Assembly: GCA_025384855.1 (NCBI GenBank) | Contig: JALAHT010000005.1 | Span: 1 to 64,000, forward strand | Source: Luteirhabdus salina | GTDB taxonomy: Bacteria > Bacteroidota > Bacteroidia > Flavobacteriales > Flavobacteriaceae | Direction of reading: 5' to 3' | Length of the DNA stretch: 64,000 nucleotides | In this document: positions 21,049 through 34,239 of the stretch, piece after piece | Numbering within the stretch: position 1 is the first letter of the stretch | Layout: every line of letters begins with the position of its first letter | Program-made: the position numbers and the translations under genes | The notes under the pieces: model-generated | Told to the model about the DNA's origin: nothing | The model's input: the letters and a program-made list of their open reading frames with translations, nothing else | The model's database searches: none

Positions 21049-22251
21049 TTAGGCGTGAAACCAGGCTTCTTTTTTATATAGCTTCGTTTTGGCAACCGAT
21101 TCCCTGTTCCGGACAACAAGATGGTTATTCTTCATTGTTTTGCTGCGATAGCCCAAGAGGTGAAAGAAATCACGCGCAAAAAAACGGGCTAGTTTTCTAT
21201 TGACGAGTAAGGCGTCTTTTTTAGCTGAAGCCCACCGAACGCCTGGTAAAATAGGTAAAAGATGGTGGATTTTCCATTTTCGAAGTATTGCCGAAAGCTT
21301 CAGGAAGAAATTCGGAATCGGTTTGATTAGGAAAAAACCGTCGGTACCCTGTTGTTGGTATAACGGCATAAAAATCTTCGCATTTGAAGCAATAGTTACC
21401 ATTTTTCCATTGTGTGAAGCCAACACCTCATGTTTGGTAACTGAAGAAAAGTTTTGATAACCTGGCTGCATATTAAATTGATCAGACTCCCGTAGTTTAT
21501 AATGCTGAAAGATTTCAAACATTCCTGAAATACCTTCACAGCAATTGTCTAGGATTTGGCAATTTGTATCTACCAACGAATGTTGATGATGTAGTATACC
21601 ACAGAATTCCAAGCTGCAATAGATAAAGGCTTTATGGTTTTCGATGGCCTCTGGATCATCGTGCTGCCCACCTTCAAAACCGAACGCCACATATCCCAAT
21701 TCATTGATATAACTAAGAAGCGGTCCCTCTAAATATTCTTCAATACCCAAAATAATCGGAGCGGGATATTGCTTTGCAAACCTTCGGTTTAACAAATTAT
21801 CATTTACCGTTAAGAAGGGAATTGTTTTGGAAGAAGTAGTATGCAGATCGAAAAAATAAAACGGTCCGACCTCGGTTTTCAATATATGCTGAAGGGTATC
21901 ATACAGTTCCTTCATCTCGATGGCTTCTTGGGTAGGGGGAAGCTCAGAGTTATTTTCCAAATGCTGCTCGACCGATTCTTTTGTCCACATTCTATTAAGG
22001 TCTTGGTCAATATAACGCAAGCCCTTTTGTAGGGCAGAAATATTCCCTGCGATGGCAAAGGCTTTCCCTTTTAGCAGTCCGTTTACGTAATGGACTTCCT
22101 TAAAAACTTCGCGTAACGCTTGCACTCCAGCTGGTTCGTTTCCATGGATACCTCCCACAAAAATTAGGGTGGGACCGGTCTCGGAACCTTCCAGAACATC
22201 GATGATCCGTGGTTGTTTTAATTGGCGTGATTTGGGGCTTGCTGACTTCAT
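21049..22251 (-). CDS. Succinylglutamate desuccinylase/aspartoacylase (AstE/AspA)-like deacylase
   Basis: A 400-residue M14-related zinc hydrolase. The metal site is GGIHGNEPAGVQAL (His36 and Glu39), with the third ligand in FFDLHTTSSKTIPF. Relatives remove an acyl group from the alpha-amine of an amino acid (N-acetylaspartate, N-succinylglutamate). The C-terminal 130 residues (from about 270) include GTDGFFLIKPIPNFFLKL and are longer than in AstE. Its ATG overlaps the stop of the GCS2-CBS gene (ATGA), so the two proteins are made together; this suggests that it acts on a gamma-glutamyl or similar amide made by that partner. The substrate is unknown. Confidence 0.85.
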   Translation of the reverse strand: MKSASPKSRQLKQPRIIDVLEGSETGPTLIFVGGIHGNEPAGVQALREVFKEVHYVNGLLKGKAFAIAGNISALQKGLRYIDQDLNRMWTKESVEQHLENNSELPPTQEAIEMKELYDTLQHILKTEVGPFYFFDLHTTSSKTIPFLTVNDNLLNRRFAKQYPAPIILGIEEYLEGPLLSYINELGYVAFGFEGGQHDDPEAIENHKAFIYCSLEFCGILHHQHSLVDTNCQILDNCCEGISGMFEIFQHYKLRESDQFNMQPGYQNFSSVTKHEVLASHNGKMVTIASNAKIFMPLYQQQGTDGFFLIKPIPNFFLKLSAILRKWKIHHLLPILPGVRWASAKKDALLVNRKLARFFARDFFHLLGYRSKTMKNNHLVVRNRESVAKTKLYKKEAWFHA

Positions 22252-24116
22252 TGGTTATCAAATTCTAATACATCCTTGATGGTTATTATGCCTATGAGTT
22301 CAGCATCCTGAACCACGGGTAAACAGCCATATTCATTTGTTTTCATAAGTGAAATAGCTTCTTCTATCGAAGTATTTGGGGTTACAGCTAATACATCGAA
22401 AGTCATAATATCGACTACGGTACTTTCACTTTCGGGAGCGGCTCCTTTTTGGTACCGTTGCATATGTGTCCATGTAAGTAAGCCTTCCAAATGACCTTGT
22501 TCATCTACTACCGGCACATGGTGGATGTCTTTCCACAACATCACTTTGGTGGCCAAACTTGCTAAATCGTGGGCGGTCACCGTAAAAAGTTGTGTGTTCA
22601 TGATGTGACCTACCATGCTTGCCGTCTTCAGAATAGCGGTTTCTTCGGAAAGTGATTCCCATTCATGGCAGGGTAATTCCGTTATTTGGTTTTGATGAAT
22701 GGTTTTGGTCAACACCCGAAGCGCATCGTCTTTCTTCATATGCTTCCGAAGCGTTCTGAAATTTTTCACCATCCATTGCGAAGGAGTGGTTTGTAACGCT
22801 CGTTGTTCAATGATATTTAAATAGGAATCTATTTCACTTATTGAAAGCCCAGCAATTTCTAGGCCTTTTTTGGCAATTGGAAGCAGTTTCTCCAGAATCA
22901 ATCGCTTTACCGAATATTGCTCGCCCATCCATTCCATGACCGCATAACGACCCGTACGCGCAGCGCGGATGAAGTTCGCCTTCACATCCTTAAAGTCCAT
23001 TTGGGACGGCATGTTATCAAATTCTTTTGGTCGGCCCAGCATCAATCCCACCCAAAAAGCGAAGGTAGCCATTTCGTCTTCTGTGGTCGGACCTGCAGCG
23101 ATATAGCGATTTTCGATACGAACATGCGGTACGCCATTACCCACACCATAACACGGGCGGTTCCATTTGTAAATGGTTCCATTGTGAAGATTAAGTGCTG
23201 CAAGTTTGGGGATATTTCCCTTTTTCAATTCTTCCAGTGAATTCTTCTCGATTTCCTTCGATAGTACAATCTTATGTTCTGCAATGTCGTTTTTGAAAAT
23301 TTCGGCTATGGATCCTGTTTCCCACCTGCTTCCGAAGGAAACCCTCGGCTGTTGGTCCTTTAGCGCGTAGGAAGAATAGCGAGTGTCTATACTCTGTTGA
23401 AACAAGGCAATACGTGTTTCGGCCCAAAGTTCTCGTCCGAGTAGTAAAGGTGAATTGGTACTAATACCCAACACAGGGCCAGAGATGGTTTGCGCCCAAT
23501 TGTAGCTTGAGATGAAATCGTCTGGACGAATCTGCAAGTGCATCTGAAAGCTGGTGTTGCAAGCTTCAAATAACACTGAATTGTGATTGATATCTAAATC
23601 GTCGACCCCTTTGATATGCAATTGAAAATCGCTTCCTCTTAATGATTTTAATCGTTCATTCAACGCCCAATAGCGCGGTTGAGGTGTCATGTACTTGAAC
23701 TCCAATTCATTTTTGCTTATGGTGGGAAGAATACCGGTCAATAAAATCTTGGTATGTTGCTTTTCGGCTACTGCTGAAGCCTTCTTCAATAAAGTTTTGA
23801 GTTGTGAACTCACGGTTGAAAAGCAATCGCTGGAAACTTCAACCGGATCGAGATTGATTTCAAGGTTATAAGTAGCCAGCTCTGTAGTGAAATGCGGATC
23901 ATCGATAGCTTTTAAGAGCGCTTCAGCATTGGTGGCGGGCCGCCAATGATCGGTAACCAAGCAAAACTCCTGTTCGGCACCAATCCGGATTATATCATCT
24001 TCAATCATTCCTTCCCGAAGCATTTTTTCCAGTGCTTCAAGGTCTGTAAGCAAATGACCCACAAATTGTGCACGTTCCTTTTTGCTCAGCTGTTGTGTAA
24101 CCCAATGATCGCCCAT
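22248..24116 (-). CDS. GCS2-type glutamate-amine ligase-like protein fused to CBS domains
   Basis: A 622-residue two-part protein. Residues about 25-420 are of the GCS2 (YbdK/gamma-glutamylcysteine ligase-like) family: IGAEQEFCLVTD, TYNLEINLDPVEVS, FQMHLQI and VRIENRYIAAGPT line the ATP and glutamate sites in this fold. Residues about 500-622 are two CBS domains (HHVPVVDEQGHLEGLLTW; IMTFDVLAVTPNTSIEEAI; EYGCLPVVQDAELIGIITI), which usually bind adenosine nucleotides and regulate the attached enzyme. I start at MGDHWVTQ because the longer frame begins with TTG and adds five residues. It lies 82 bp downstream of recG and is coupled to the deacylase. The product of the ligase is unknown; plain glutathione synthesis is not supported by a gshB neighbour. 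Confidence 0.88.
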   Translation of the reverse strand: MGDHWVTQQLSKKERAQFVGHLLTDLEALEKMLREGMIEDDIIRIGAEQEFCLVTDHWRPATNAEALLKAIDDPHFTTELATYNLEINLDPVEVSSDCFSTVSSQLKTLLKKASAVAEKQHTKILLTGILPTISKNELEFKYMTPQPRYWALNERLKSLRGSDFQLHIKGVDDLDINHNSVLFEACNTSFQMHLQIRPDDFISSYNWAQTISGPVLGISTNSPLLLGRELWAETRIALFQQSIDTRYSSYALKDQQPRVSFGSRWETGSIAEIFKNDIAEHKIVLSKEIEKNSLEELKKGNIPKLAALNLHNGTIYKWNRPCYGVGNGVPHVRIENRYIAAGPTTEDEMATFAFWVGLMLGRPKEFDNMPSQMDFKDVKANFIRAARTGRYAVMEWMGEQYSVKRLILEKLLPIAKKGLEIAGLSISEIDSYLNIIEQRALQTTPSQWMVKNFRTLRKHMKKDDALRVLTKTIHQNQITELPCHEWESLSEETAILKTASMVGHIMNTQLFTVTAHDLASLATKVMLWKDIHHVPVVDEQGHLEGLLTWTHMQRYQKGAAPESESTVVDIMTFDVLAVTPNTSIEEAISLMKTNEYGCLPVVQDAELIGIITIKDVLEFDNQ

Positions 24117-24198
24117 ACCTTTTAAATTCAATGCTCAATTTGCAAGGTAGCACGCAAGGGAGGTTTAAAAAATGCGAAATGTCATGTTTGGTAGCACG

Positions 24199-33099: not shown

Positions 33100-34239
33100 A
33101 TGAAAAAAGTACTAGTTGGCGCAGCAGCGCTATTGTTTACCGTGTCTTCATGGGCACAAATTATTAATCAATCGGGTAGTTTCAATCTTGCAAATGGAAA
33201 CCAAGTTGGTTTTTTTAACTATTATGAGATCGATCAGACCGGCGATTATAATAACGCCGATACCGATCAGAATGGAATACTGAATAGTTCCGATACCGAT
33301 CAGGTAGGCGATTTCAATATTGCTTTTATCGATCAAGATGGAATTTTACAAAATACTAGGGTGAATCAATTCGGGGACGATAACCAAGCAGATGTTTTTC
33401 AAGAAATTGCTTTAAATACCACGGGCTTGGATCAATTGGGAAATGATAATAGTGCTGATATTACCCAAAGTGGATTCCTTAACGAAACCTATGTTTGGCA
33501 GGAGGGAAATGGAAACGATGCCGATACCGATCAGGCGGGAGATCTAAACATTTTGGATGCCTTTACCGTTGGGAATTTTAATGAAGTAACCATCGATCAA
33601 CAGGGAGATGCGAATGAAGTTGATAGTGATCAGTTCGGAAATCGCAATGAATTTATTGCAGACCAAACAGGCGATGCCAACAATTCGTTTTCTATCCAAG
33701 TTGGAAATCGAAATGAAAACGACACAGATCAAACAGGTTTTGCGAATGTTGCAGATCATATACAGGAGGGTAATCGAAACAGGTCCGATGCTTTCCAGAA
33801 TGGAGATGATAATCAATCGGTGCTAATCCAGGATGGTAACCGTAATCGGTATAACACGAACCAGCAGGGAAATATTAATTCCTCGACCGTGCTACAAATC
33901 GGGAACCGCAATCGTACGGTGGCTTTTCAAGGCGGAGATGAAAATGTTTCTGCAATTTCACAGATTGGAAACCGGAATTATTCCTCTGGCATCCAAAATG
34001 GTGACTTTAATCTAAACAACATCGATCAGCAGGGGTTACGACACACGAGTACGTTGCTTCAAGTGGGAGATTACAATAAAAATGAAGTGCTCCAGCAAGG
34101 AACCGATCATGTTAGTGAAGTGATTCAAAATGGCGATTTGAATTGTACGAAGATTTTTCAATATGCTACCGGTGGTCCACATACGGCTTTCGTAAATCAA
34201 GCAGGAAACAACAACACCGCTTGTATTTTTATGAATTAG
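33100..34239 (+). CDS. Secreted curlin-repeat (CsgA-like) protein
   Basis: A 379-residue exported protein built of about thirty 11-residue curlin-like repeats with the pattern Q-x-G-x-x-N (for example DQTGDYNNADT, IQVGNRNENDT, LQIGNRNRTVA). Residues 1-19 are a signal peptide (VSSWA|QI). Each repeat should form one strand-turn-strand rung of an amyloid-like beta-solenoid, as in CsgA/CsgB. E. coli CsgA has only five such 22-residue units, so this is roughly three times longer. Two cysteines occur near the C terminus (LNCTKI, NTACIF). No csgB, csgE, csgF or csgG homologue is near; export beyond the periplasm is therefore not explained locally. It is followed by a bidirectional terminator. Confidence 0.88.
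   Translation: MKKVLVGAAALLFTVSSWAQIINQSGSFNLANGNQVGFFNYYEIDQTGDYNNADTDQNGILNSSDTDQVGDFNIAFIDQDGILQNTRVNQFGDDNQADVFQEIALNTTGLDQLGNDNSADITQSGFLNETYVWQEGNGNDADTDQAGDLNILDAFTVGNFNEVTIDQQGDANEVDSDQFGNRNEFIADQTGDANNSFSIQVGNRNENDTDQTGFANVADHIQEGNRNRSDAFQNGDDNQSVLIQDGNRNRYNTNQQGNINSSTVLQIGNRNRTVAFQGGDENVSAISQIGNRNYSSGIQNGDFNLNNIDQQGLRHTSTLLQVGDYNKNEVLQQGTDHVSEVIQNGDLNCTKIFQYATGGPHTAFVNQAGNNNTACIFMN

Follow-up and report, generated by a model that had tools for sequence, protein, structure and literature searches.

A divergent GCS2-like ligase with a CBS pair, kept beside an AstE/AspA-type zinc deacylase in Bacteroidota: a candidate gamma-glutamyl-type amide module

We describe a pair of genes in the first 64,000 nucleotides of contig JALAHT010000005.1 (GenBank assembly GCA_025384855.1) of the flavobacterium Luteirhabdus salina; this whole stretch is called the window below. 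On the minus strand, a divergent GCS2-like carboxylate-amine ligase that carries a pair of CBS domains in the same chain is followed, with an overlap of 4 bp, by the gene of an AstE/AspA-type zinc deacylase. We lean, though not strongly, toward the view that the first protein is a gamma-glutamyl-type amide ligase, perhaps energy-gated, which has its own hydrolase and which in Flavobacteriaceae is linked to a GshB-like second step. The features of the locus are the following.

22248 to 24116, minus strand: GCS2-like carboxylate-amine ligase with CBS pair, one chain, 622 amino acids (aa) from the ATG at 24116
21049 to 22251, minus strand: AstE/AspA-type zinc deacylase, ATG start, 400 aa (PF24827, Foldseek, invariant residues)
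22248 to 22251, minus strand: 4-bp overlap ATGA of ligase stop and deacylase start (from the reading frame coordinates)
22674 to 23996, minus strand: GCS2-like catalytic domain, residues ~46 to 486, numbered from the TTG at 24131 (VIA-align and motif columns)
23981 to 23967, minus strand: GAEQE (GhExE) motif of the ligase, residues 51 to 55
22251 to 22625, minus strand: CBS pair, residues 503 to 627 (PF00571)
22292 to 22272, minus strand: GxxTxxD motif of the second CBS domain, residues 614 to 620

Both open reading frames (ORFs) lie where the initial annotation, made from the sequence alone, had placed a GCS2-CBS fusion overlapping a deacylase gene by 4 bp. The longest ligase ORF opens at TTG 24131 (627 aa) and ends at 22248, and ligase residue numbers are counted from that TTG. 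Since the Met encoded by ATG 24116 is conserved in 68 of 76 distinct aligned ligases, the remaining 8 rows being gaps, this ATG is the better start. The ligase of Luteirhabdus pelagi is 95% identical to that of the window.

Sequence comparison placed the ligase at the edge of recognition. The Pfam GCS2 model (PF04107) scored 20.8 bits against the whole protein (cut-off, 21) and 21.8 bits against the catalytic part alone, and it matched 13 of the 19 members of the ligase alignment at an E value of 0.1 or better. NCBIfam scores were far under the cut-off for the ligase in every one of the 25 families listed (of 29), and for the deacylase in 3 of 3. Because the NCBIfam YbdK model (TIGR02050) gave 15.3 bits against a cut-off of 176.4, the ligase was not classed as YbdK, and YbdK proper was rejected as its identity. 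An hhalign comparison with Escherichia coli YbdK was weak (probability, 0.9%), and profile A1 matched no ligase and no solved GCS2-fold chain among the PDB sequences. Sequence routes gave no identity for the ligase, and the predicted fold alone was decisive. A phage search with the ligase at 1e-10 gave no match, while a plasmid search found three actinobacterial relatives, all without the CBS tail. In the two plasmid stretches that are annotated, no deacylase is given beside the relative; the third, a Nonomuraea record, is unannotated at that place. One such CBS-less actinobacterial relative (L123) lies on a Streptomyces plasmid near a nickel hydrogenase gene cluster.

The AlphaFold2 model of the ligase, made from 19 input sequences, had a mean pLDDT of 81.8, and its best Foldseek matches were YbdK of Salmonella and E. 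coli and plant glutamate-cysteine ligase. VIA-align superposed the model on YbdK structures 1tt4 (Z 30.3, 338 aligned residues, root mean square deviation 2.9, 13% identity) and 1r8g (Z 29.8) and on the plant enzyme 2gwc (Z 26.8, 370 aligned residues), with the overall fold in agreement and identities of 13 to 17% over the three matches. YbdK thus shares with the window ligase the fold over ~340 residues and the GhExE, Q/HxN/H, Arg, and ExR motifs, whereas the window ligase is only 12 to 13% identical to it and has an additional C-terminal CBS pair and a paired hydrolase. The plant enzyme shares the fold but shows no sequence match to the window ligase, even by profile, and to our knowledge it has no CBS part. 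Further down the VIA-align ranking came other glutamate-cysteine ligases and then PafA and Dop, at Z scores of ~19 to 20.

Conservation was read from 76 distinct ligase sequences, taken from 116 ORF matches and restricted to rows covering more than 440 profile positions; many matches were repeats of one genome, loci L125 to L164 were skipped, and the window protein is present twice among the 77 rows. Thirteen residues (G51, E53, E55, E84, E91, Q196, H198, R240, R263, R325, R338, E340, and R342) are invariant in all 76. Section 5 of PMC2588565 gives GhExE, [HDQ]x[NH], Ex[RK]x2D, and Arg residues as the motifs of GS-fold ligases. In the model, GhExE is found on core strand 1 (G51, E53, and E55 of GAEQE, strand 49 to 59), [HDQ]x[NH] on core strand 4 (Q196xH198, reading QMH, strand 195 to 200), the Glu of Ex[RK]x2D on core strand 6 (E340xR342, strand 334 to 341 plus the next residue), and the strand-5 Arg as R325 (strand 324 to 331), with R240 and R263 in the preceding loop, where the model stretch 239 to 262 is of low confidence. 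E91 is on strand 89 to 98, with E84 preceding it, the assignment of this strand as strand 3 being not certain. The trailing Asp of Ex[RK]x2D, present in GCS2 proper, is Ala in the window ligase (ENRYIA); that section of PMC2588565 does not call this Asp catalytic. PafA has [HQ]x[NH], the same form as Q196xH198 (PMC2588565).

Given the fold matches and the invariant catalytic positions, we regard the protein as a divergent member of the GS-fold superfamily other than YbdK proper, namely a GCS2-like carboxylate-amine ligase with an intact predicted active site. The GCS2-type domain named in the initial annotation, borderline in Pfam, is thereby borne out by the fold, and none of the active-site Glu and Arg residues, whose loss that annotation had singled out as telling, was missing from the alignment.

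The likeness to PafA raises the possibility that the ligase attaches a residue or a tag to a protein or peptide, as PafA does with Pup, and that the deacylase removes it. PafA and Dop are of the same fold, but small-molecule ligases match the model better (Z 30 and 27), and no small ORF recurs beside the pair among ORFs of at least 80 aa. AstE/AspA relatives of established function, moreover, act on small acyl amino acids. Even with GCS2 and PafA being related (PMC2588565), we consider such a modification system very improbable.

The CBS pair is plain in the sequence: PF00571 matched two stretches of the ligase at 86.8 bits (cut-off, 24). Residues 503 to 627 fold like AcuB bound to AMP, ADP, or ATP and like AMP-bound CBSX2. 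GxxTxxD is a ribose-phosphate-binding pattern in CBS domains, and among 71 distinct CBS-tailed sequences the second CBS domain keeps its Gly in 71, Thr or Ser in 69, and Asp in 52. The tail is absent from five rows of the conservation set, three actinobacterial and two from Bacteroidota family f32. Because the fold resembles nucleotide-bound CBS pairs and GxxTxxD is largely kept, sensing of adenine nucleotides by the ligase is plausible, and the likeness to nucleotide-binding CBS pairs agrees with the nucleotide-sensing part named in the initial annotation.

The deacylase was recognized more readily. PF24827 (AstE_AspA_cat) scored 66.4 bits against a cut-off of 25, and the protein model (pLDDT 87.5) matched AstE, EutE/DoeB, aspartoacylase, and CphZ (8eip/8ein) in Foldseek. 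H36, E39, N86, R87, H137, and E193 are invariant in all 16 rows of alignment A2, window included; we take H36, E39, and H137 to form the HxxE...H zinc site, N86-R87 to be the Asn-Arg pair, and E193 to be the catalytic Glu. These features are shared with AstE succinylglutamate desuccinylase, aspartoacylase, and EutE (DoeB) and agree with the AstE/AspA-type zinc deacylase named in the initial annotation. Unlike those enzymes, the window protein falls under the NCBIfam equivalog cut-offs (AstE, 45.8 versus 305.65 bits; aspartoacylase, 53.4 versus 180) and has a C-terminal extension, and its close relatives mostly sit directly behind a ligase (see below). Enzymes annotated as M14 or AstE/AspA split beta-Asp-Arg from cyanophycin, a polymer made with ATP (PMC10206079). 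CphZ is a precedent for an AstE/AspA-type fold that undoes an isopeptide bond formed by a ligase at the expense of ATP, with the difference that the partner ligase of the window deacylase has the GS fold.

The pairing was followed in two samples, 60 near genomes (L. salina included) and 395 Bacteroidota genomes. A full-length ligase occurs in 16 of the 60 near genomes, and in all 16 the deacylase is adjacent or fused, so the pairing is not due to chance; in G041 and G054, ligase and deacylase are joined into a single protein, 828 and 927 aa long, respectively. In the larger sample the ligase is present in 116 genomes. Profile A2 at 1e-10 found at least 61 deacylase places (up to 4 candidates per genome were scored, and some deacylases may escape), of which 52, in 51 of the 116 ligase genomes, immediately follow a ligase gene in the same orientation. 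Adjacency was computed from 62 ligase rows (families with an A2 match plus a few more) against all 61 deacylase rows, second tandem ligase copies being excluded. In family f38 the deacylase adjoins the ligase in 43 of 43 ligase genomes. The nine other A2 places comprise five unlinked ones in family f19 and four in operons with MATCAP and ATP-grasp genes (a second copy in the L. salina genome, here G000, and copies in G111, G422, and G328, the last judged by coordinates). In family f32 the deacylase was missed by A2 at 1e-10, but a PF24827 scan, counted by eye from listings, showed it next to the ligase in 21 of 23 genomes; in one f32 genome (G405) the ligase runs into the contig end. The f32 ligase lacks the CBS part in the two copies read and thus represents a deep CBS-less branch that keeps the pair. 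Altogether, 72 of the 116 ligase genomes (51 + 21) have the deacylase next door.

The two genes are also tightly spaced (−47 to +25 nucleotides at 32 loci, window included, with the first possible start used; about −110 nucleotides at two f32 loci whose starts are uncertain). Ligase and deacylase identities over 32 pairs are correlated (r = 0.73), with none of 999 permutations as high. From the pairing, fusion, and tight spacing, the deacylase truly belongs with the ligase, and the two genes often stay together in other genomes, whereas their not doing so would have told against the initial annotation. In nine genomes (L090, L091, L094, and others of g147/g178), two ligase copies stand head to tail before one deacylase, perhaps reflecting a heterodimer or two substrates; the upstream copy in G227 is fragmentary.

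Across 55 neighborhoods, which hold 812 ORFs of at least 80 aa, the pair has no recurring third partner. Recurrent neighbors, named by eye, are PriA, ScpB, RsuA-like, CtpA, and RnpA; they appear to be housekeeping genes and vary between lineages. A phmmer search of the 812 ORFs at E 0.01 found no match to any ATP-grasp, GCS2, FGase, or MATCAP query, the four ATP-grasp queries included, though remote ATP-grasps could escape; the positive control gave 12 matches over all nine queries. The initial annotation had suggested looking for a RimK-type ATP-grasp as a third partner. ATP-grasps do occur in the same genome, but they are GshB-like and stand in two operons unlinked to the pair, as follows.

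G000 contig C29, ~280 to 284 kb (L088, 8963 to 12775): GshB-like ATP-grasp, paralogous AspA-like deacylase, and 616-aa MATCAP/QEGLA protein
G000 contig C23, ~153 to 156 kb (L109): GshB-like ATP-grasp, FGase-like (N-formylglutamate-amidohydrolase-like) enzyme, and short MATCAP/QEGLA protein

The former lies some 257 kb from the pair, downstream of asnB. The latter type of operon tracks the ligase within the family. Among 37 Flavobacteriaceae, FGase stands beside MATCAP in 11 of 12 ligase bearers versus 4 of 25 others (one-sided Fisher test, 1.6e-5), and the ATP-grasp is present in all 15 FGase-MATCAP operons. Fourteen of these ATP-grasps are 69 to 86% identical to the L111 copy, and only that of G014 is distant (33%); a contig end truncates the one in G016. 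No such association with the ligase was seen for the long MATCAP form (2 of 12 bearers versus 7 of 25 others). In a second, partly overlapping sample, a strict ATP-grasp ortholog (more than 450 bits, a line drawn at a gap in the score table, with up to 5 candidates per genome scored) was found in 7 of 7 ligase bearers versus 2 of 22 others, and in 5 of 5 versus 2 of 21 once shared genomes were removed (p = 3e-4); the 395-genome set holds at least 24 Flavobacteriaceae without the ligase, of which the test used 22.

Shared descent alone appears to be a poor explanation of this co-occurrence, because genomes bearing both traits are not clustered on a RecG tree (9 changes versus a shuffled mean of 9.7), a quick one-gene tree in which 18 of 34 inner forks are open. 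Shared habitat was considered as a cause through a single control, rhodopsin (PF01036), which showed no association in a hand count (5 of 37 Flavobacteriaceae; 2 of 12 ligase bearers versus 3 of 25 others).

A ligase, an amidohydrolase, and an ATP-grasp seem to form a recurring flavobacterial theme, since three other flavobacteria (G008, G015, and G032) have three consecutive genes, for an RLAN/RimK-like ATP-grasp, a GCS2 protein of ~410 aa, and an FGase (L169 to L171), as identified by Pfam in G015 and by identities of 74 to 75%, 62 to 65%, and 50 to 54% to the G015 copies in the other two. The GCS2-CBS ligase was not found in these three genomes. Their operon likewise couples a GS-fold ligase to an amidohydrolase, but it uses other GCS2 and hydrolase families and includes the ATP-grasp, which is unlinked in L. 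salina. In another genome of the order (L173), a YbdK-type GCS2 gene lies beside a class-I glutamine-amidotransferase gene, and L174 has genes of equal sizes.

The GshB-like operons bear on a second alternative, plain gamma-glutamylcysteine and glutathione synthesis, in which the fusion would be the missing GshA, the ATP-grasp on C23 would be GshB, and the deacylase would recycle gamma-glutamyl compounds. The co-occurrence in Flavobacteriaceae suits this alternative, as do the closest solved folds (YbdK and plant glutamate-cysteine ligase) and a Pfam scan of the L. salina genome that found no other GCS2. The C23 ATP-grasp, one of the two GshB-like proteins of that genome, passed PRK12458 (448.7 bits; cut-off, 408) and the glutathione synthase model PRK05246 (286.6; cut-off, 272) but failed TIGR01380 (243.8; cut-off, 299). 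The ligase is present in 116 of the 395 genomes, but strict orthologs of this ATP-grasp were found in at least 10, and 7 of those carry the ligase. A family-level listing in PMC12719100 also places Flavobacteriaceae among the families encoding N-methyl-bacillithiol, which suggests that many have another thiol. We therefore hold glutathione synthesis to be unlikely. The initial annotation had excluded glutathione since no gshB is nearby; locally this is correct, but the exclusion was too strong given the ATP-grasp scores, and to claim glutathione outright would likewise be too strong.

In the reading that we prefer, which builds on the modeled folds, the catalytic residues, the pairing, the fusions, and the co-occurrence, the pair would be a two-enzyme module making and unmaking one small-molecule amide. 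The ligase would use ATP to phosphorylate a carboxyl group and would then couple an amine to it; the gamma-carboxyl of glutamate is the likeliest such group. Adenine nucleotides are the probable signal read by the CBS pair, which would gate the ligase by energy state, while translational coupling would cause the deacylase to be made in step with the ligase. The deacylase would hydrolyze the same or a closely related amide by means of zinc-bound water, its Asn-Arg pair holding the substrate carboxylate. In Flavobacteriaceae the ligase product probably feeds the unlinked operon, where the GshB-like ATP-grasp would add another residue and the FGase-like and MATCAP/QEGLA hydrolases would trim or recycle the product. 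A more specific and still tentative possibility, on balance a doubtful one, is a hitherto undescribed gamma-glutamyl system spread over two operons, which would assemble and take apart a glutathione-like peptide other than glutathione and whose first and last steps, under energy gating, would be carried out by the pair.

Several observations weigh against the proposed module. An intact deacylase next to the ligase was not seen in 44 of the 116 genomes. Five of these carry a related deacylase elsewhere, and in 37 a PF24827 scan beside the ligase found none adjacent (0 of 37, counted by eye from listings, some ligases being near contig ends). The other two are f32 genomes: G405, with its ligase at a contig end, and G163 (L175), which retains the ligase and a deacylase remnant made up of the two ends, the catalytic middle being gone. 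With 44 genomes lacking an intact neighbor, the ligase does not need an adjacent deacylase. The link to the second operon has exceptions as well. No GCS2 was found in G013, G027, and G030, which have that operon, G020 bears the ligase but lacks the operon, and outside Flavobacteriaceae the operon does not track the ligase, MATCAP occurring in 2 of the 43 ligase genomes of f38. A strict paired test on the tree, which is underpowered, yielded 5 independent pairs (mean, 3.6 same and 0.1 opposite; median p = 0.125).

The genomes without an adjacent deacylase would also suit the two genes being mere neighbors with unrelated substrates. The one-chain fusions, the adjacency in 72 of 116 genomes across deep divergence (including all of f38), the tight spacing, and the matched divergence of the two proteins make this scarcely credible. 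In a further alternative, the ligase would cap an amine early in a pathway and the deacylase would uncap it at the end, with unlinked enzymes acting in between. Polyamine breakdown, which runs via gamma-glutamylated intermediates, offers a parallel, and such a protecting-group role suits two genes that stay together and fuse. Yet no third pathway gene recurs in the 55 neighborhoods, and the retention of the ligase in G163 after loss of the deacylase would leave a capped dead end, so we judge this role improbable.

Elsewhere in the window, positions 33100 to 34239 encode a 379-aa protein with many QxGxxN-like repeats, judged curlin-like by eye.

Full-text literature searches returned no paper dealing with the fusion or with the gene pair; they did not cover a 2009 amidoligase survey, reportedly by Iyer and colleagues, in which a prior mention is possible. 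For the amide module that we favor, the significance is that an orphan ligase family present in 116 of 395 sampled Bacteroidota genomes gains a hydrolase of its own. In one family the ligase is also tied to a GshB-like operon, one member of which is a bacterial relative of MATCAP (Pfam PF08014), a peptidase named after microtubules. The vague annotation "glutamate-cysteine ligase family protein" would thereby become a testable pathway, and the CBS pair would offer a simple test of energy-gated amide conjugation.

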